Under the pieces are notes generated by a model. The model ran no database searches and was not told the DNA's origin. It was given only the letters and a program-made list of their open reading frames with translations. A stretch of DNA of 44,662 nt, taken from NCBI GenBank assembly GCA_002069765.1, contig MWBZ01000027.1, positions 1-44,662 on the forward strand, read 5' to 3'. The position numbers and the translations under genes were made by a program. The DNA is from a bacterium ADurb.Bin243 (GTDB lineage: Bacteria; Muiribacteriota; UBA9980). This document shows positions 195 through 6,788 of the stretch, in pieces; position 1 is the first letter of the stretch; the number at the start of each line of letters is the position of its first letter.

Positions 195-2504
195 TTAAGA
201 TTTGCCTCTAAATCTTTCTACTATTTGCTCCGAGAGCGTCTGAGGTAACTGTTCATAATTTGAGAACTGCATGGTATAGGTTCCACGCCCCTGCGTCAGT
301 GACCGTAAAGAAGTTGAATAACCGAACATTTCTGATAGTGGAACATGCCCTTTGATGATCTGAGTGTTTCCTCTCATTTCCATACCTTCAATTTTACCTC
401 TTCTGGAATTAAGATCGCCCATAACTTCACCCATGTAGTCTTCGGGGACGACGATCTCTATTTCCATATACGGCTCGAGCAATATAGGCGCGCACTTTTT
501 GCATCCTTCGCGGAACGCCATCGACGCCGCGATTTTAAAAGCCATTTCCGAGGAATCCACTTCGTGGTAAGAACCGTCGAGTAATTTCACGCAAAGGTCG
601 ACAACCGGGAAACCTGCGAGCGTGCCGCTTTCTGCGGCTTCGCGCACGCCTTTTTCAATAGCCGGTATGTATTCGCGCGGAATCGTCCCGCCGATGATCT
701 TATTTTCAAAAACTATTCCCGACTTAGGCGGCATAGGGGATATTTCGATTTCGCAATGGCCGTACTGGCCGCGGCCGCCGCTCTGGCGGACGTAACGGCC
801 TTCGATCTTAGTCGATTTTGTGACCGTTTCCTTGTAGGCGACCTGGGGCTTGCCTACATTTGCCTCCACTTTGAACTCGCGGATAAGCCTGTCGACGATA
901 ATTTCGAGATGGAGTTCGCCCATTCCGCCGATAAGCGTCTGCTGGGTTTCCTCGTTGGTCGAAACTCTGAACGTCGGGTCTTCTTCGGCGAGCTTCGCCA
1001 GAGAAGTGCCGAGCTTGTCCTGATCGGCTTTGGTCTTCGGCTCGATAGCAACGTGGATAACGGGTTCGGGGAAAACAATCTTTTCGAGCACGATCGGATT
1101 GCTCTGTTCGGTAAGCGTATCGCCCGTAGTGGTATTTTTCAACCCTACAGCGGCGGCTATATCGCCCGCGTAAACCCTGTCGATCTGCGTGCGCCTGTTG
1201 GCGTGCATCTGCAAAAGCCTGCCGATGCGTTCGGTGGTACCGCGCATCGAATTATAAATATAAGAACCGGAAGTTAAAACGCCCGAGTAAACTCTGAAGT
1301 AAGTTAATTTTCCGACGTAAGGGTCGGTCATTATCTTGAACGCGAGAGCGGAGAATTTTTCGTTATCGGCGGTCTGGCGGGTCAACGGCTCTTCGGTTTT
1401 GGGATGGATACCCGTTACCGGAGGAACGTCGAGCGGAGAAGGCAGATAATCCACTATCGCGTCGAGCATGGTCTGGACGCCTTTATTTTTAAAAGAGGAG
1501 CCGCATATAACCGGAGTTATATTCATGGCTATGGTGGCGCTTCTGATGGCGCGCTTTATCTCTTCTTTTGACATTTCAACGCCTTCGACGTACTTGTGAT
1601 ACAATTCCTCGTCGTGCTCCGAAATTTTTTCGATCATATATTCGCGCGCGTGTTTGCACGCTTCTAAATAATCGGCCGGGATGTCGAGGATATCGTATTT
1701 TACGCCGAGCGTAGAATCGTCGAACAGGTAAAGCTTCATTTCGATCAGGTCGATGCAGCCTTTAAAGGTGTCTTCCTTGCCGAACGGAAGCTGTATGGGT
1801 ACCGGATTCGCGCCCAGGCGCGACTTCATCATTTCTACCACGCGTTCGAAGTCGGAACCGATGCGGTCCATTTTATTGACGTACGCAAGCCTCGGAACCT
1901 TGTATTTATCGGCCTGTCTCCAGACCGTTTCCGACTGCGGCTGAACTCCGCCCACAGCGCAAAATACGGCAACTGCGCCGTCTAATACGCGAAGCGATCT
2001 TTCAACCTCGACGGTGAAGTCAACGTGTCCGGGCGTATCTATAATGTTGATTCGATTGCTTCTCCAGTAGGTGGTTGTAGCAGCCGAAGTTATAGTTATG
2101 CCGCGTTCGCGTTCCTGGACCATCCAGTCCATAGTGGCGCATCCGTCATGGACTTCGCCTATTCTATGAACCACGCCGGTATAAAACAGTATTCTTTCGG
2201 TAGTCGTAGTTTTCCCCGCGTCGATATGAGCCATGATACCGATGTTGCGCGTGTTTTCGAGAGCGAATTCGCGCTTTTCGATATGTTTGATCTCCACTAT
2301 TGGTTCGGCGGCTTTCGCCGCGGGCTTTTCAGTTTTAGCGGACGCCGCTTCGACTTTAGTTACCTCCGCCACAGGCGCATTGTCGGCCTGAGGTTCGGCT
2401 TCGATTACGGCAACCGTGCTTTGAGCGCTCATTAAATTTTCGGCATGACTGTTGATGTCGGTACTCATTAAATCCCCGTTTTTCTCCTTCTGGGTCTTAC
2501 TCAT
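195..2504 (-). CDS. fusA: Elongation factor G with N-terminal extension
   Basis: This is the translocation GTPase of the ribosome. Seen: P-loop AHIDAGKTT (about residues 92-100), [13 protein letters not shown], and the later EF-G domains through to a normal C-terminus. The protein is 769 residues, longer than the usual roughly 690-700, because about 70 Ala/Glu/Lys/Pro-rich residues precede the canonical [16 protein letters not shown]. The start is ambiguous. ATG at 2504 has a weak AGGG upstream; ATG at 2468 (codon 13) has GGGG five nt and AAGGAG fifteen nt upstream. Either start keeps most of the extension. It lies between rpsG (58-nt gap) and tuf in the str operon. Confidence 0.97.
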
Positions 2505-2562
2505 TTATAAATGCCCTATCTAGTAAATAGTTCTTTTCTTTTTTAAGATAATGTAATATATT

Positions 2563-3036
2563 TTACCACTTGAAGTGCGAGAACGCTTTGTTAGCTTCTG
2601 CCATTTTGTGCGTGTCTTCGCGTTTTTTAATCGTCGAGCCCTGGTTGTTGTATGCGTCGAGCAGTTCGTTGGCGAGGTTTTCGCCCATCGAGCGGCCTGA
2701 TCTGCTTCTGGAATAGTTTATGATCCAGCGGAACGCAAGCGCCATGCTGCGGTCTTTTTTGATTTCGAGCGGAACCTGATATGTAGCGCCGCCGACGCGT
2801 CTGGATTTAACTTCGAGAAGCGGCATCGCGTTCTGAAGAGCCTGTCTGAAAACTTCTAAAGGCTCTTTGTCTTTTACTTTTGTTTTCAGTATTTCGAGCG
2901 CTCCGTAAACGATATTGTGCGAAGTATTCTTTTTGCCTTCATACATTAAGTTGTTGGCGAATTTTTCGAGCACTACATCATTGTAAATGGGATCGCCCGG
3001 GGTTTTTCTTTTAAGAGCTTCTTTTCTTCTTCCCAT
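2563..3036 (-). CDS. rpsG: 30S ribosomal protein S7
   Basis: The 157-residue protein begins MGRRKEALKRKTPGDPIYND and ends KMAEANKAFSHFKW, typical of bacterial S7, the primary 16S rRNA-binding protein that organises the 30S head. Length is normal. It starts 26 nt after rpsL and precedes fusA, the conserved str order. In other bacteria S7 can repress translation of its own operon; no specific S7-binding site could be recognised here by eye. It ends with TAA. Confidence 0.98.
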   Translation of the reverse strand: MGRRKEALKRKTPGDPIYNDVVLEKFANNLMYEGKKNTSHNIVYGALEILKTKVKDKEPLEVFRQALQNAMPLLEVKSRRVGGATYQVPLEIKKDRSMALAFRWIINYSRSRSGRSMGENLANELLDAYNNQGSTIKKREDTHKMAEANKAFSHFKW

Positions 3037-3062
3037 TATCGCTATCCTCCGTCTTAGCTAGA

Positions 3063-3437
3063 TTACTTTTTAGGTGTTTTCGCGCCGTATTTCGAGCGGC
3101 TCTGTCTTCTGCCGTCAACGCCCGCGGTGTCGAGAACGCCGCGAACTATATGGTAACGGATACCAGGTAAGTCTTTTACGCGTCCTCCGCGTATTAAAAC
3201 TATCGAGTGTTCCTGTAAATTATGTCCGACACCCGGAATGTAAGCCGTAACTTCTATGCCGGTGGTGAGCCTTACCCTCGCGACTTTACGTAAAGCCGAG
3301 TTAGGTTTTTTAGGCGTGATCGTCCATACCCTTGTGCAAACACCCCTTTTCTGAGGGCATTCGTTCATTGCGGGGCATTTGGTTTTGTTTGTGATCTGTT
3401 TGCGCCCCATCCTGATCAATTGATTAATCGTCGGCAT
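3063..3437 (-). CDS. rpsL: 30S ribosomal protein S12
   Basis: The 124-residue protein contains [20 protein letters not shown] and [19 protein letters not shown], the decoding-centre loops of S12. The lysines in TPKKPNSAL (K43, K44, counting Met) and K88 in RVKDLPG are present, so the streptomycin-sensitive residues are unchanged. The Asp in RVKDLPG is the site that RimO methylthiolates in some bacteria. It is the first gene of the str operon, with an AGGAGG-like Shine-Dalgarno just before ATG. Its leader of about 145 nt carries a terminator-like hairpin. Confidence 0.98.
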
Positions 3438-3780: not shown

Positions 3781-5307
3781 TCAACTATTGAAAAGACGCG
3801 GCGAATCGAGTTCTTTATTTTTCAAATATTCGCCGTACTTTCCTTCATAGGTAATAATACTCTTATCGTTTATTATAAGCGTCCTGTCGGCGACGCTGTT
3901 AACGAAGCGCCTATCGTGCGAACATATCAGCATGGCGCCGTCATAATCCGCCAGAACTTCTTCGAGCGCGGCGAGAGAAAATAGATCCAGGTAATTCGTA
4001 GGTTCGTCGAGGACCAAAAAATTAAATCCGGCGAGCAGTATTTTGGCGATCGCCGTCTTTACGCGTTCGCCCCCGCTGAGCATAGACGCTTTTTTGTGCA
4101 CTTCGTCGCGGCGGAAAAGAAGCCCTGCCAGAAGAGTCCTGACGGTAGTTTCGTCGTATGACGACGATTCCAGAACGTTTTCCAGAACGCTTTTTCGGTA
4201 ATCGAGCGTTTCGACGCCCTGACCGAAGTAACCGATTCTCGCCTGAGCGGATATCCTTATATTTTCCGCAGCGGCCATTATCATTTTTATCAGCGTGGTT
4301 TTTCCGCAGCCGTTAGGGCCTATCAACGCCGTTTTAGCCCGGGCCGGAATTTCGAATCGGGCATCTTCGAATATTATTTTTTCGCCGAAATTTTTGCCGA
4401 GGTTATCGCACGAAACAACTGCCCTTGCATGAACGCGGCCGTGTTCGGGAACGCTTATTTTAACTCTGCCGGGCCTGTAAGGCTTTTCTTTGACTTCGAG
4501 CTGCGAGAGCCTGGATTTTAAAGCTTCCGCGGCGCCGTCGATTTTCTTTTTTTTCGAGTTGATTCCCCTGGTATGAAGACGCGCCTCGGAATTACCCATG
4601 CGTTTCGGCGTTTTTCTCATTTCCCTCGATTTTTGCTTTTTATCCACGATAGCCCGCTCGATGCGTTTTTTCTCAGACAGGTAATCGTAATATTCGAACT
4701 CGGCCCGGTCAAATATAAGCTTTTTCTGATATTCATATTCAAGATATCCGCAATCGAAATCGTTGATTTTAGAATTTTCGATTTCGATAATCCTGCAGCA
4801 AAGCTTTTGCAGTAAAGTGCGGTCGTGCGAAACGATTATCAGCGTGCCTCTAAATTCTTTGAGTTTTTCTTCGAGGATTTCGATTGCGCGCATATCCAGA
4901 TTCGAAGTCGGTTCGTCCATAATTAAAATGTCGCTCGCCATTTCGAGCGCCGCCGAAATTCTGTACCTGGTTTTTTCGCCGCCGCTTAAATAGTCTCTGT
5001 ATTCATCCGCGGCATTAAATTCCGCCGATACCGCGCCGGGAAAATCGCCCGCTTCGACGCCGCCGCGGCCGCTTTCGGTAAAACCTTCGTCCAGCTGGGC
5101 CGCGTAAGAAACGGAGCCGTTTATTACAACTTCTCCGCTATCGGGGGTTTTAACTCCCGAGAGAATATCGAGCAGCGTGGTTTTTCCGCAGCCGTTAACC
5201 CCCGTTATAGCTATTTTTTCACCTTCGTAGATTCTCAGGCTGCCGCATTCGAAAAGCAGCCTGTCGCCGTAGTATTTTTTTATTTTATTCAAGCTTATTT
5301 TCAACAT
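3781..5307 (-). CDS. ABC-F ATPase, probable antibiotic-resistance ribosomal protection protein
   Basis: This is a soluble twin-ATPase ABC protein with no membrane domain. Seen: Walker A GVNGCGKTT (about 36-44), signature LSGGEKTRYR (about 108), Walker B ILIMDEPT, then a basic linker of about 80 residues, second Walker A GPNGCGKTT (about 329), second signature LSGGERVKTA (about 408) and LDEPTNYLD. Family knowledge: ABC-F proteins bind the ribosomal E site; resistance members (Vga, Lsa, Msr, VmlR types) displace macrolide, lincosamide, streptogramin or pleuromutilin drugs. The 508-residue length and the start KISLNKIKKYYGDRLLFE resemble the Firmicute resistance type more than housekeeping EttA/Uup. 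The leader has an attenuator-like layout, which supports a drug-inducible role. The specific drug class cannot be read from sequence. Confidence 0.9.
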   Translation of the reverse strand: MLKISLNKIKKYYGDRLLFECGSLRIYEGEKIAITGVNGCGKTTLLDILSGVKTPDSGEVVINGSVSYAAQLDEGFTESGRGGVEAGDFPGAVSAEFNAADEYRDYLSGGEKTRYRISAALEMASDILIMDEPTSNLDMRAIEILEEKLKEFRGTLIIVSHDRTLLQKLCCRIIEIENSKINDFDCGYLEYEYQKKLIFDRAEFEYYDYLSEKKRIERAIVDKKQKSREMRKTPKRMGNSEARLHTRGINSKKKKIDGAAEALKSRLSQLEVKEKPYRPGRVKISVPEHGRVHARAVVSCDNLGKNFGEKIIFEDARFEIPARAKTALIGPNGCGKTTLIKMIMAAAENIRISAQARIGYFGQGVETLDYRKSVLENVLESSSYDETTVRTLLAGLLFRRDEVHKKASMLSGGERVKTAIAKILLAGFNFLVLDEPTNYLDLFSLAALEEVLADYDGAMLICSHDRRFVNSVADRTLIINDKSIITYEGKYGEYLKNKELDSPRLFNS

Positions 5308-5341
5308 AAAAATCCCTCCCGGTAAATCCGGCAGGGATTTT
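5308..5341 (-). terminator. Hairpin of the ABC-F leader: terminator that also contains the Shine-Dalgarno
   Basis: Plus-strand arms AAAATCCCT (5309-5317) and AGGGATTTT (5333-5341) pair perfectly. After a C-C mismatch, CCGG (5319-5322) pairs with CCGG (5328-5331) around a 5-nt loop. On the minus strand the 3' arm contains the Shine-Dalgarno GGGAGGG (5314-5320) and runs into TTTTT directly before the ATG at 5307. Forming it should terminate transcription, hide the ribosome-binding site, or both. Confidence 0.85.
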
Positions 5342-5497
5342 ATTTAAACGGATAAATATATATCGGACGTAAGACGGCGCCGCGAATCGTATATATCGTT
5401 TTTTTAGAATATAGTCCCCGCCGGAAAAATAATCAGATGCGGCAAGCGCGAGCTGCGCCGCCGGCGTTTAATTTTAATTTTTCCGTTATTTTAAGGG

Positions 5498-5509
5498 CTA
5501 TATTCTCAT
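5498..5509 (-). CDS. Three-codon upstream ORF (Met-Arg-Ile) in the ABC-F leader
   Basis: Minus strand AAGGTGG (5514-5520), 4-nt spacer, ATG AGA ATA TAG. A strong Shine-Dalgarno before a 3-codon ORF inside a leader has little purpose except regulation. Very short leader peptides, some with an Arg after Met, are known to arrest drug-bound ribosomes in resistance-gene leaders. Codons 2-4 are exactly the bases that pair with the antiterminator strand downstream. Confidence 0.7.
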   Translation of the reverse strand: MRI

Positions 5510-5568
5510 CTTGCCACCTTACGCTTATTAATAATTCTCTAAATTTCGACCGGTTTTCAGTTTTTTAT

Positions 5569-5597
5569 ATTTTATCAAATATTAACGCGTTTGTCAA
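5569..5597 (-). promoter_or_regulatory. ABC-F gene promoter
   Basis: Minus strand TTGACA (5592-5597), 17-nt spacer, TAAAAT (5569-5574). Predicted start is about 5562, so the leader before the ABC-F ATG is about 255 nt long. Confidence 0.85.
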
Positions 5598-5601
5598 CCC
5601 G

Positions 5602-5632
5602 GGAACCCATAAGTGTCAAGTTAAAGTTAAAA
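5602..5632. repeat. Dispersed repeat, copy 1 (partner at 14915-14951)
   Basis: GGAACCCATAAG (5602-5613) is identical to 14940-14951. TGTCAAGTTAAAGTTAAAA (5614-5632) matches 14915-14933 with one mismatch. The two blocks are in opposite order at the two sites. Both sites sit just upstream of the -35 of a minus-strand gene. It may be debris of an insertion sequence; no transposase is visible. Confidence 0.6.
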
Positions 5633-5688
5633 TGTCCGGTTTTTTAACATTTTGTTTTTTAAAAGTTTATTTATTAAAAACTGATCGC

Positions 5689-5723
5689 GGCATGGATCTT
5701 AAATTAACTTAGCGATCCATGCC
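5689..5723. repeat. 10-bp perfect inverted repeat
   Basis: GGCATGGATC (5689-5698) and GATCCATGCC (5714-5723) flank a 15-nt AT-rich loop. On the minus strand it is followed 8 nt later by TTTTT. It may be a second terminator after the Rpn gene or part of a small mobile element. Apart from this and the neighbouring hairpin I see no gene in 5600-5894. Confidence 0.6.
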
Positions 5724-5748
5724 GATGATTTCAGGATGCAGTAATAAG

Positions 5749-5800
5749 AAAGGCACCCGCCAGTCGCAACTGCGATCGTTGAAGTGCCTTTTTATTTTTT
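5749..5800. terminator. Bidirectional terminator downstream of the Rpn gene
   Basis: Arms AAAGGCAC (5749-5756) and GTGCCTTT (5784-5791) pair perfectly, with an inner CGC-AACT-GCG hairpin. The plus strand continues TTTATTTTTT. On the minus strand it lies about 100 nt after the end of the Rpn gene, with a poorer U tract. Confidence 0.65.
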
Positions 5801-5894
5801 ATCGGCGATAACCGTTAACGAACCCGAACATGGACTGAATCGGAACGCTACATGGCCAGCCCGGGACAAACCGGATGATAAGCACCGGCAAGTC

Positions 5895-6788
5895 CTATAT
5901 AATAAGTTTTCTGATCTCGTCTTCGGGCAGGCCTGAATACTTTATAACGGTATTAACATCCACGCCGTCGTGAAGCATCTGGCGGGCTATTTCAATCTTA
6001 CCTTCAATCTTACCTTCAATCTTACCTTCGATCTTACCTTTAGCCTCGCCTCTGGCCTCAGCATCCCTACGCGCTTCTTCAATCCTCGAAGCTTCGTCTA
6101 TTGATGCTTTGCGCCTGAAATCGATCAGTTCCTTGACGTAATTGTCGGCTACTGCGTGTCTGTACGCTTCTATGGCCATAACAATCTCCTCCTCGTTCTT
6201 TAAGGCCTCCGGTATCGGCGACAGCCGGTCCTGATATAACTCGCTGAACTTCAGCAGATAAAGCCACTTCTCGAACTTCGTCATCTCTTTGTAAGGCTTA
6301 TCTTTATCGTATTTGATGAGTTCTATATAATGCAGTTCCAGCTTATCCGTCAGTTCAGCGCCGCTTTTTACGTTCAGCAGGCGGAATGTATTGTGCAGAT
6401 CGGGCGTATAGTTAATCAACTCAAAATCGGTTATCGATATGCCTATGGTCATAGCCAGGTCCTGATACCTGCCGCCTGCTTCGAGCTGATCACCGAATAG
6501 TTTTGACAGATAATAAACCGTGCGGACTATGTAATCCTTCGCCGGCTTAAGCTGGACTTCTATGTTGTACCGGTGCCCCCGGCCGTCGACGGCCTTGATG
6601 TCGAGTATCGAGTGCTTTTCTTTTACGGTTTCCTTGTCTATGCTCGGGTTAAGTATCGTTATGTCCGTTATTGCATTCTGGCCCCCGTAACCGAGTATCG
6701 CATTCAACAGGGCCATCAGGATGCGCTTGTTCTCGTCCTTCGCAAAGACTATTTTGAATATAATATCGTTGATTATGCTGTATGACAA
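5895..6788 (-). CDS. Rpn-family recombination-promoting nuclease / putative transposase (PD-(D/E)XK)
   Basis: The 297-residue protein starts NDIIFKIVFAKDENKRILMA and has LDIKAVDGRGHRYNIEVQ (about residues 62-79), the D...ExQ core of the PD-(D/E)XK nuclease/transposase family (Rpn/YhgA-like). Known Rpn proteins promote RecA-independent recombination and some act in phage defence. The start is TTG at 6788, with GAGGAA about 8 nt upstream; no in-frame ATG fits better. The C-terminal region has a GEAKGKIEG... stretch with four KIEG units encoded by a 12-bp tandem repeat, then a helical tail that ends normally (LPEDEIRKLII). Such low-complexity linkers are common and variable in this family. Confidence 0.88.
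   Translation of the reverse strand: MSYSIINDIIFKIVFAKDENKRILMALLNAILGYGGQNAITDITILNPSIDKETVKEKHSILDIKAVDGRGHRYNIEVQLKPAKDYIVRTVYYLSKLFGDQLEAGGRYQDLAMTIGISITDFELINYTPDLHNTFRLLNVKSGAELTDKLELHYIELIKYDKDKPYKEMTKFEKWLYLLKFSELYQDRLSPIPEALKNEEEIVMAIEAYRHAVADNYVKELIDFRRKASIDEASRIEEARRDAEARGEAKGKIEGKIEGKIEGKIEIARQMLHDGVDVNTVIKYSGLPEDEIRKLII
5991..6038 (-). repeat. 12-bp tandem repeat, four copies, inside the Rpn gene
   Basis: Plus-strand unit TTCAATCTTACC at 5991-6002, 6003-6014 and 6015-6026, with one mismatch (TTCGATCTTACC) at 6027-6038. It encodes the KIEG repeats. Copy number could change by slippage without shifting the frame. Confidence 0.95.

Follow-up and report, generated by a model that had tools for sequence, protein, structure and literature searches.

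Does the leader of the ABC-F gene found on the 44,662-nt contig analyzed here (the window) function as a drug-responsive switch, and, if so, how did such a switch come to reside in this host? A preliminary description of this DNA had proposed a complete ribosome-mediated attenuator, comprising a promoter, a Met-Arg-Ile upstream open reading frame (uORF) with its own Shine-Dalgarno (SD) sequence, a segment 2 capable of alternative pairing, and a terminator holding the ABC-F SD, in an apparently non-Firmicute genome. All these elements are present where they had been placed (Table 1), and the host is indeed not a Firmicute but belongs to Candidatus Wallbacteria, with genus-mates that include Candidatus Wallbacteria bacterium GWC2_49_35 (genome G002, locus L004). 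The leader is very probably a cplR-type, ribosome-mediated attenuator.

Table 1. The ABC-F gene of the window and the elements of its leader
Feature	Coordinates	Strand	Remarks
Leader promoter, TTGACA-N17-TAAAAT	5597-5569	minus	11/12 consensus matches
uORF Shine-Dalgarno, AAGGTGG	5520-5514	minus	AAGGTG unchanged across 4 genus members
uORF ATG AGA ATA TAG, three codons, Met-Arg-Ile-stop	5509-5498	minus	Tripeptide shared with cplR of Clostridioides difficile (PMC10201436)
Segment 1, uORF codons 2-4 + CCC; anti-antiterminator	5506-5495	minus	Pairs with segment 2
GC-rich hairpin inside helix 1:2	5485-5422	minus	Minimum-free-energy fold
Segment 2, CCGGCGGGGACTATATTCT	5424-5406	minus	5414-5406 pairs with uORF, 5424-5415 with terminator 5' arm
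Segment 3, terminator 5' arm	5341-5328	minus	Alternative partner of segment 2
Segment 4, terminator 3' arm	5322-5309	minus	Holds ABC-F Shine-Dalgarno GGGAGGG (5320-5314)
U-run after segment 4	extends to 5308	minus	Adjoins ABC-F ATG at 5307
ABC-F ribosomal protection protein, ARE1 (CplR/Vga) kind, 508 aa	5307-3781	minus	

Segment 2 has two alternative partners, both of which had been recognized in the preliminary description. The complementarity between AGAATATAG (5506-5498), that is, uORF codons 2-4, and 5414-5406 is perfect over 9 nt, whereas CCGGCGGGGA (5424-5415) pairs with TCCCTGCCGG (5337-5328) over 10 nt, including one G-U pair. The helix between segments 1 and 2 (1:2) turned out to be longer than claimed, as the CCC that follows the stop codon (5497-5495) extends it to 5418-5416, with one A bulged, and it encloses a second, GC-rich hairpin. 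The energy of the 1:2 duplex was matched by 2/200 dinucleotide shuffles, and that of the alternative 2:3 duplex (-21.0 kcal/mol) by 0/500. Immediately 5' of the ABC-F ATG, the terminator region reads AAAATCCCTGCCGG-ATTTA-CCGGGAGGGATTTTT and is predicted to form a 13-bp stem (5341-5309; -20.7 kcal/mol) with a 5-nt loop and a single G.G mismatch.

In the minimum-free-energy fold, which corresponds to the repressed state, the uORF is sequestered in the 5' hairpin. We modeled the co-transcriptional state as RNA that extends to the terminator loop and still lacks the 3' arm of the terminator, and represented the stalled ribosome by blocking positions up to +16 from the uORF AUG. With this block, the 2:3 helix was obtained for two clostridial leaders and for each of the four from Wallbacteria; without it, 2:3 was absent in three of the four Wallbacteria leaders, the free RNA of the relative L005 already making this helix unaided. 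By contrast, at equilibrium, the full-length window RNA with a blocked uORF preferred the terminator by ~8 kcal/mol (-59.4 vs -51.2 kcal/mol). Thus, with the uORF masked, a check proposed in the preliminary description, the antiterminator was obtained in the RNA extending to the terminator loop, but not in the equilibrium fold of the full leader. Because the full-length equilibrium favors the terminator even with the block, the switch would have to act during transcription, and the folding models suggest a co-transcriptional choice between antiterminator and terminator.

The ABC-F gene, the MRI uORF and the switch are present in 4/4 genomes of the genus, with protein identities of 67-88% (the loci of the three relatives are denoted L003, L004 and L005). 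Conservation in relatives, which had been named as a decisive check, was indeed observed: the uORF, both pairings and the SD-holding terminator are kept in all four genus members, and the layout recurs in distant clostridial relatives. In the three relatives, the uORF reads ATGAGAATATA(A/G), with AAGGTG 5' of each, and the L003 leader is preceded by the same promoter as that of the window. Common to all four leaders are CCGGC-GGGA-(C/T)TATATTC and AATCCCTGCCGGAT..GGAGGGATTTTT, where GGAGGGATTTTT is the invariant part of the terminator 3' arm, while the spacers between the conserved elements vary in both length and sequence. In the four-row alignment of helix 1:2, 95.8% of the cells are paired, compared to 27-57% when the helix is shifted by 1-3 columns. 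This helix contains one compensated change, at the last position of the stop codon (TAG/CTA to TAA/TTA, the facing base changing from C to T), and where the stop is TAA, an inserted U pairs with the A left bulged in the window. The covariation sought in the leader amounts to this single pair among four sequences of low divergence and does not exceed the shuffle control, which reached as much in 86/500 cases.

Additional starts lie near the terminator in two of the relatives. In L005, a second small ORF (MKIPAG-stop, L005:2462-2482) with an SD-like GGAG begins just 5' of the terminator, and in L004, an ATG that also follows a similar SD lies within the last 40 bases ahead of the ABC-F start codon (2501) and is in frame with ABC-F through the terminator; no such extra start is present in the window or in L003.

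Beyond the genus, we identified clostridial homologues in 39/291 genomes (E <= 1e-100) and read the leaders of the best of these. Their uORFs are short (MRI, MRM, MRILF, MRID, MRIG, MKK and others), and most of the leaders read have a GGAGG-like SD in a hairpin and a U-run that stops at the start codon. The segment complementary to the uORF adjoins or overlaps the one able to pair with the terminator 5' arm, in leaders of unrelated sequence. The 1:2 duplex was matched by at most 5/200 shuffles in 28 of 33 leaders (4 from Wallbacteria and 29 others), no upstream decoy segment equaled the 1:2 segment in 23/31, and in 5/33 the uORF that our script selected gave no good 1:2 duplex, these counts being slightly generous since the best of several candidate uORFs was sometimes taken and some of the leaders are closely related. 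Because the helix sequences differ strongly between groups and yet the pairings persist, these comparisons provide good evidence that the three-way switch holds as a class across the groups.

Such conservation also bears on whether the uORF might be a chance ATG in a leader whose folding responds to something else, such as a ligand or temperature, an explanation that could be entertained for an ORF of only three codons but that we regard as extremely improbable. The uORF and its SD are kept in 4/4 genus members and in the clostridial homologues, the SD-MR[IM] pattern occurs once in the 5.0-Mb genome of the window (the SD followed by ATGAGAATRTAR is found at this site only), and cplR offers a direct precedent for control by a uORF. 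In addition, an Rfam scan of 5200-5900 yielded no family at or near its gathering score, and the relaxed E-value gave sub-threshold hits only.

The encoded protein passed the cut-off of the equivalog model for ribosomal-protection ABC-F proteins (NF000355; 467.6 bits vs 380), and its nearest solved structures are Vga (7nhl) and Lmo0919 (7nhn). Its best NCBIfam match is CplR (NF043038, exception-level), with 533 bits, under the cut-off of 780, so that we consider it a relative of CplR rather than a CplR by name. The two Walker A motifs and the two signature motifs are all intact (GVNGCGKTT / LSGGE and GPNGCGKTT / LSGGE). The protein is at most ~47% identical to the sampled clostridial homologues, and a search of 57 genomes (4 of the same genus, 36 of the same phylum and 17 others; E <= 1e-80) detected the gene in the four genomes of this genus only. 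In a tree of 46 proteins, with a clostridial sample drawn from one class, the proteins of the four Wallbacteria genomes fall into a single clade (100/100) within a group that unites them with CplR relatives and Vga (100/100); they are placed beside the clostridial CplR relatives (94/96 and 88/88), although their exact position is weakly resolved, and the other ABC-Fs of the same phylum fall on the far side of the tree. This position, next to clostridial CplR relatives and far from the other ABC-Fs of the phylum, suggests that the gene and its leader were probably acquired from Bacillota by the ancestor of the genus and then descended vertically. A recent mobile-element origin was considered and rejected: plasmids and phages yielded relatives of <60% identity only, and the position upstream of rpsL is shared by two of the three relatives.

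The long stem branch of the Wallbacteria proteins (0.78), and their length, ~40 residues short of the clostridial CplR relatives, could also be taken to indicate a decayed leader, with a constitutive terminator/SD hairpin and no live uORF response in Wallbacteria. We judge such decay distinctly improbable, given that the uORF, its SD, segment 2 and the terminator are invariant or nearly so against the variable spacers, that helix 1:2 carries a compensated change, and that the ABC-F reading frame is open in all four genomes. A functional CplR-type attenuator, in a phylum new to this mechanism, is probably what these conserved sequences represent.

Downstream of the ABC-F gene of the window lie rpsL, rpsG and fusA (195-3437, minus strand). 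The gene is located upstream of rpsL in 3/4 genus genomes; rpsG and fusA follow rpsL in the window and L004, the L003 contig ends after rpsL, and rpsL was not found within the 2.5-kb downstream flank of L005. Co-regulation of these str operon genes with ABC-F was considered, as no terminator was detected between ABC-F and rpsL-rpsG-fusA, but was set aside, rpsL having its own promoter with 12/12 consensus matches (3618-3590). Directly upstream, the window carries a gene for a recombination-promoting nuclease/transposase of the Rpn/PDDEXK_2 family (5895-6788, minus). At this position, L003 and L004 instead contain a long conserved gene, and L005 contains a GNAT-like gene and, on the other strand, an Rpn gene of 44% identity. 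A 25-nt core, GTCAAGTTAAAGTTAAAATGTCCGG (plus strand 5615-5639, within 5614-5643), which has one other copy in the genome and is also present in two sister genomes, stands upstream of the leader promoter, where the match between the window and L003 ends, and may mark one end of an inserted element that includes the Rpn-type gene.

Among the other ABC-Fs of the phylum that we examined (L058, L060-L062, L066 and L067), the MRI leader is absent. In the leader of a different ABC-F gene from the same phylum (L058, genome G008), a TTGACA-N17-TATAAT promoter is followed by GGGAG and the starts GTG-TAA and ATG-ATC-AAT, then by a GC hairpin that has a T-run and, beyond that hairpin, by a 12-codon ORF (MFNITVSNHKTK) with a strong SD; this leader is possibly another attenuator. 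In both genomes of another genus of this phylum (L062 and L066), a short ORF, ATGAAAATCAACTGA (MKIN-stop), ~80 bases before the ABC-F start, is followed by GACCT and, farther on, by AGGAGGTC ahead of the ABC-F gene, a possible small translational switch.

For the window leader, we infer that transcription starts at the promoter listed in Table 1 and propose the following mechanism. Without drug, helix 1:2 would fold, the 3:4 terminator would form, and transcription would halt just before the ABC-F ATG, any escaping transcripts being poorly translated with their SD paired. In the presence of a drug, a ribosome would stall as it begins the Met-Arg-Ile uORF and cover segment 1 (+4 to +15 of the uORF); by the toeprint distance in vmlR, 16 nt from the first base of the uORF start codon (PMC9226507), an initiation-stalled ribosome would reach ~5494 and hide all of this segment. 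The freed segment 2 could then pair with the emerging segment 3, so that no terminator forms and the SD is left open, and the ABC-F protein would be made and dislodge the drug.

Control might instead be mainly translational, with the 3:4 hairpin hiding the SD, the U-run too weak for termination, and stalling doing no more than free the SD. The U-run of the window is short, just 5 before AUGUUG, and a poly-U mutant of C. difficile cplR stayed drug-regulated, indicating that translational attenuation is sufficient there (PMC10201436). However, a strong stem directly followed by U5 (U6 in L005) is found in all four genomes, and the cplR mutations support transcription and translation attenuation acting together (PMC10201436). 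We therefore view a mainly translational mode as rather unlikely, albeit the most serious competitor of the dual attenuator set out above.

Judged by its relatives, the gene would confer resistance to pleuromutilins, lincosamides and streptogramin A, and its likely inducers are these same drugs, not macrolides. With regard to origin, we lean towards the view that an ARE1 ABC-F gene and its MRI-uORF attenuator passed together from Bacillota to an uncultured, deep-branching phylum, where they are still functional, the arms having been rewritten to the new base composition. If so, the window leader would represent the first CplR-type attenuator recognized beyond Bacillota and would attest to natural PLSA-type antibiotic pressure on Wallbacteria; in the literature searched, we found no paper tying Wallbacteria to such a switch, although its absence is not thereby proven. 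The cplR-type sensor can probably cross phyla along with the gene that it controls. Its layout appears to persist as the helix sequences change, with a uORF arm that fits the footprint of an initiation-stalled ribosome and one hairpin serving two roles, and could serve as a template when uncultured bacteria are searched for inducible resistance.

In leaders of the erm type, a drug-stalled ribosome redirects leader folding, the leader peptides are longer, and macrolide stalling depends on the nascent chain. The refolding proposed for the window leader is of the same kind, but involves a uORF shorter than the erm peptides. Closer in form is vmlR of Bacillus subtilis, where a Met-Ile-Asn uORF within the anti-antiterminator controls transcription and translation attenuation through stalling at the initiation stage (PMC9226507). 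Both leaders share a three-codon uORF placed within the anti-antiterminator; unlike in vmlR, where SL-3 and SL-4 are separate and the protein is of the ARE2 kind, here one hairpin is both the terminator and the SD lock, the uORF encodes Met-Arg-Ile, and the protein is ARE1. The lincomycin-induced rli53 / lmo0919 (VgaL) system of Listeria monocytogenes likewise has a short uORF and a conditional terminator before an ARE1 ABC-F gene (PMC11550727), as does the window, although, compared by description, the two differ in sequence and host; a published figure aligns the Lmo0919 leader with CplR leaders (PMC10201436).

The nearest counterpart is cplR of C. difficile, whose 212-nt leader (CDIF630nc_084) contains a Met-Arg-Ile uORF (consensus MR[I/M]), an antiterminator, and a terminator in which the SD is sequestered, with premature termination at the start codon (PMC10201436). 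The gene is induced by lincomycin and retapamulin; mutation of the uORF start abolishes induction, and mutation of the terminator stem renders expression constitutive (PMC10201436). The core CplR group occurs in clostridial genera, with relatives in Bacillota (PMC10201436). Like the cplR leader, that of the window has a Met-Arg-Ile uORF in a 5' hairpin, an alternative antiterminator, a terminator that ends at the start codon and sequesters the SD, and an ARE1 ABC-F gene downstream; the lengths are also similar, with 202 nt from the uORF to the ABC-F start here. The differences lie in the host, Candidatus Wallbacteria as opposed to Bacillota, in the GC-rich arms, and in the shorter, at most ~47% identical protein. 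The preliminary description anticipated that this locus would extend the mechanism, and it would do so with respect to phylum but not in kind, given that the Met-Arg-Ile switch has already been tested in C. difficile (PMC10201436): the mechanism is already known from cplR, and only the host phylum is new.
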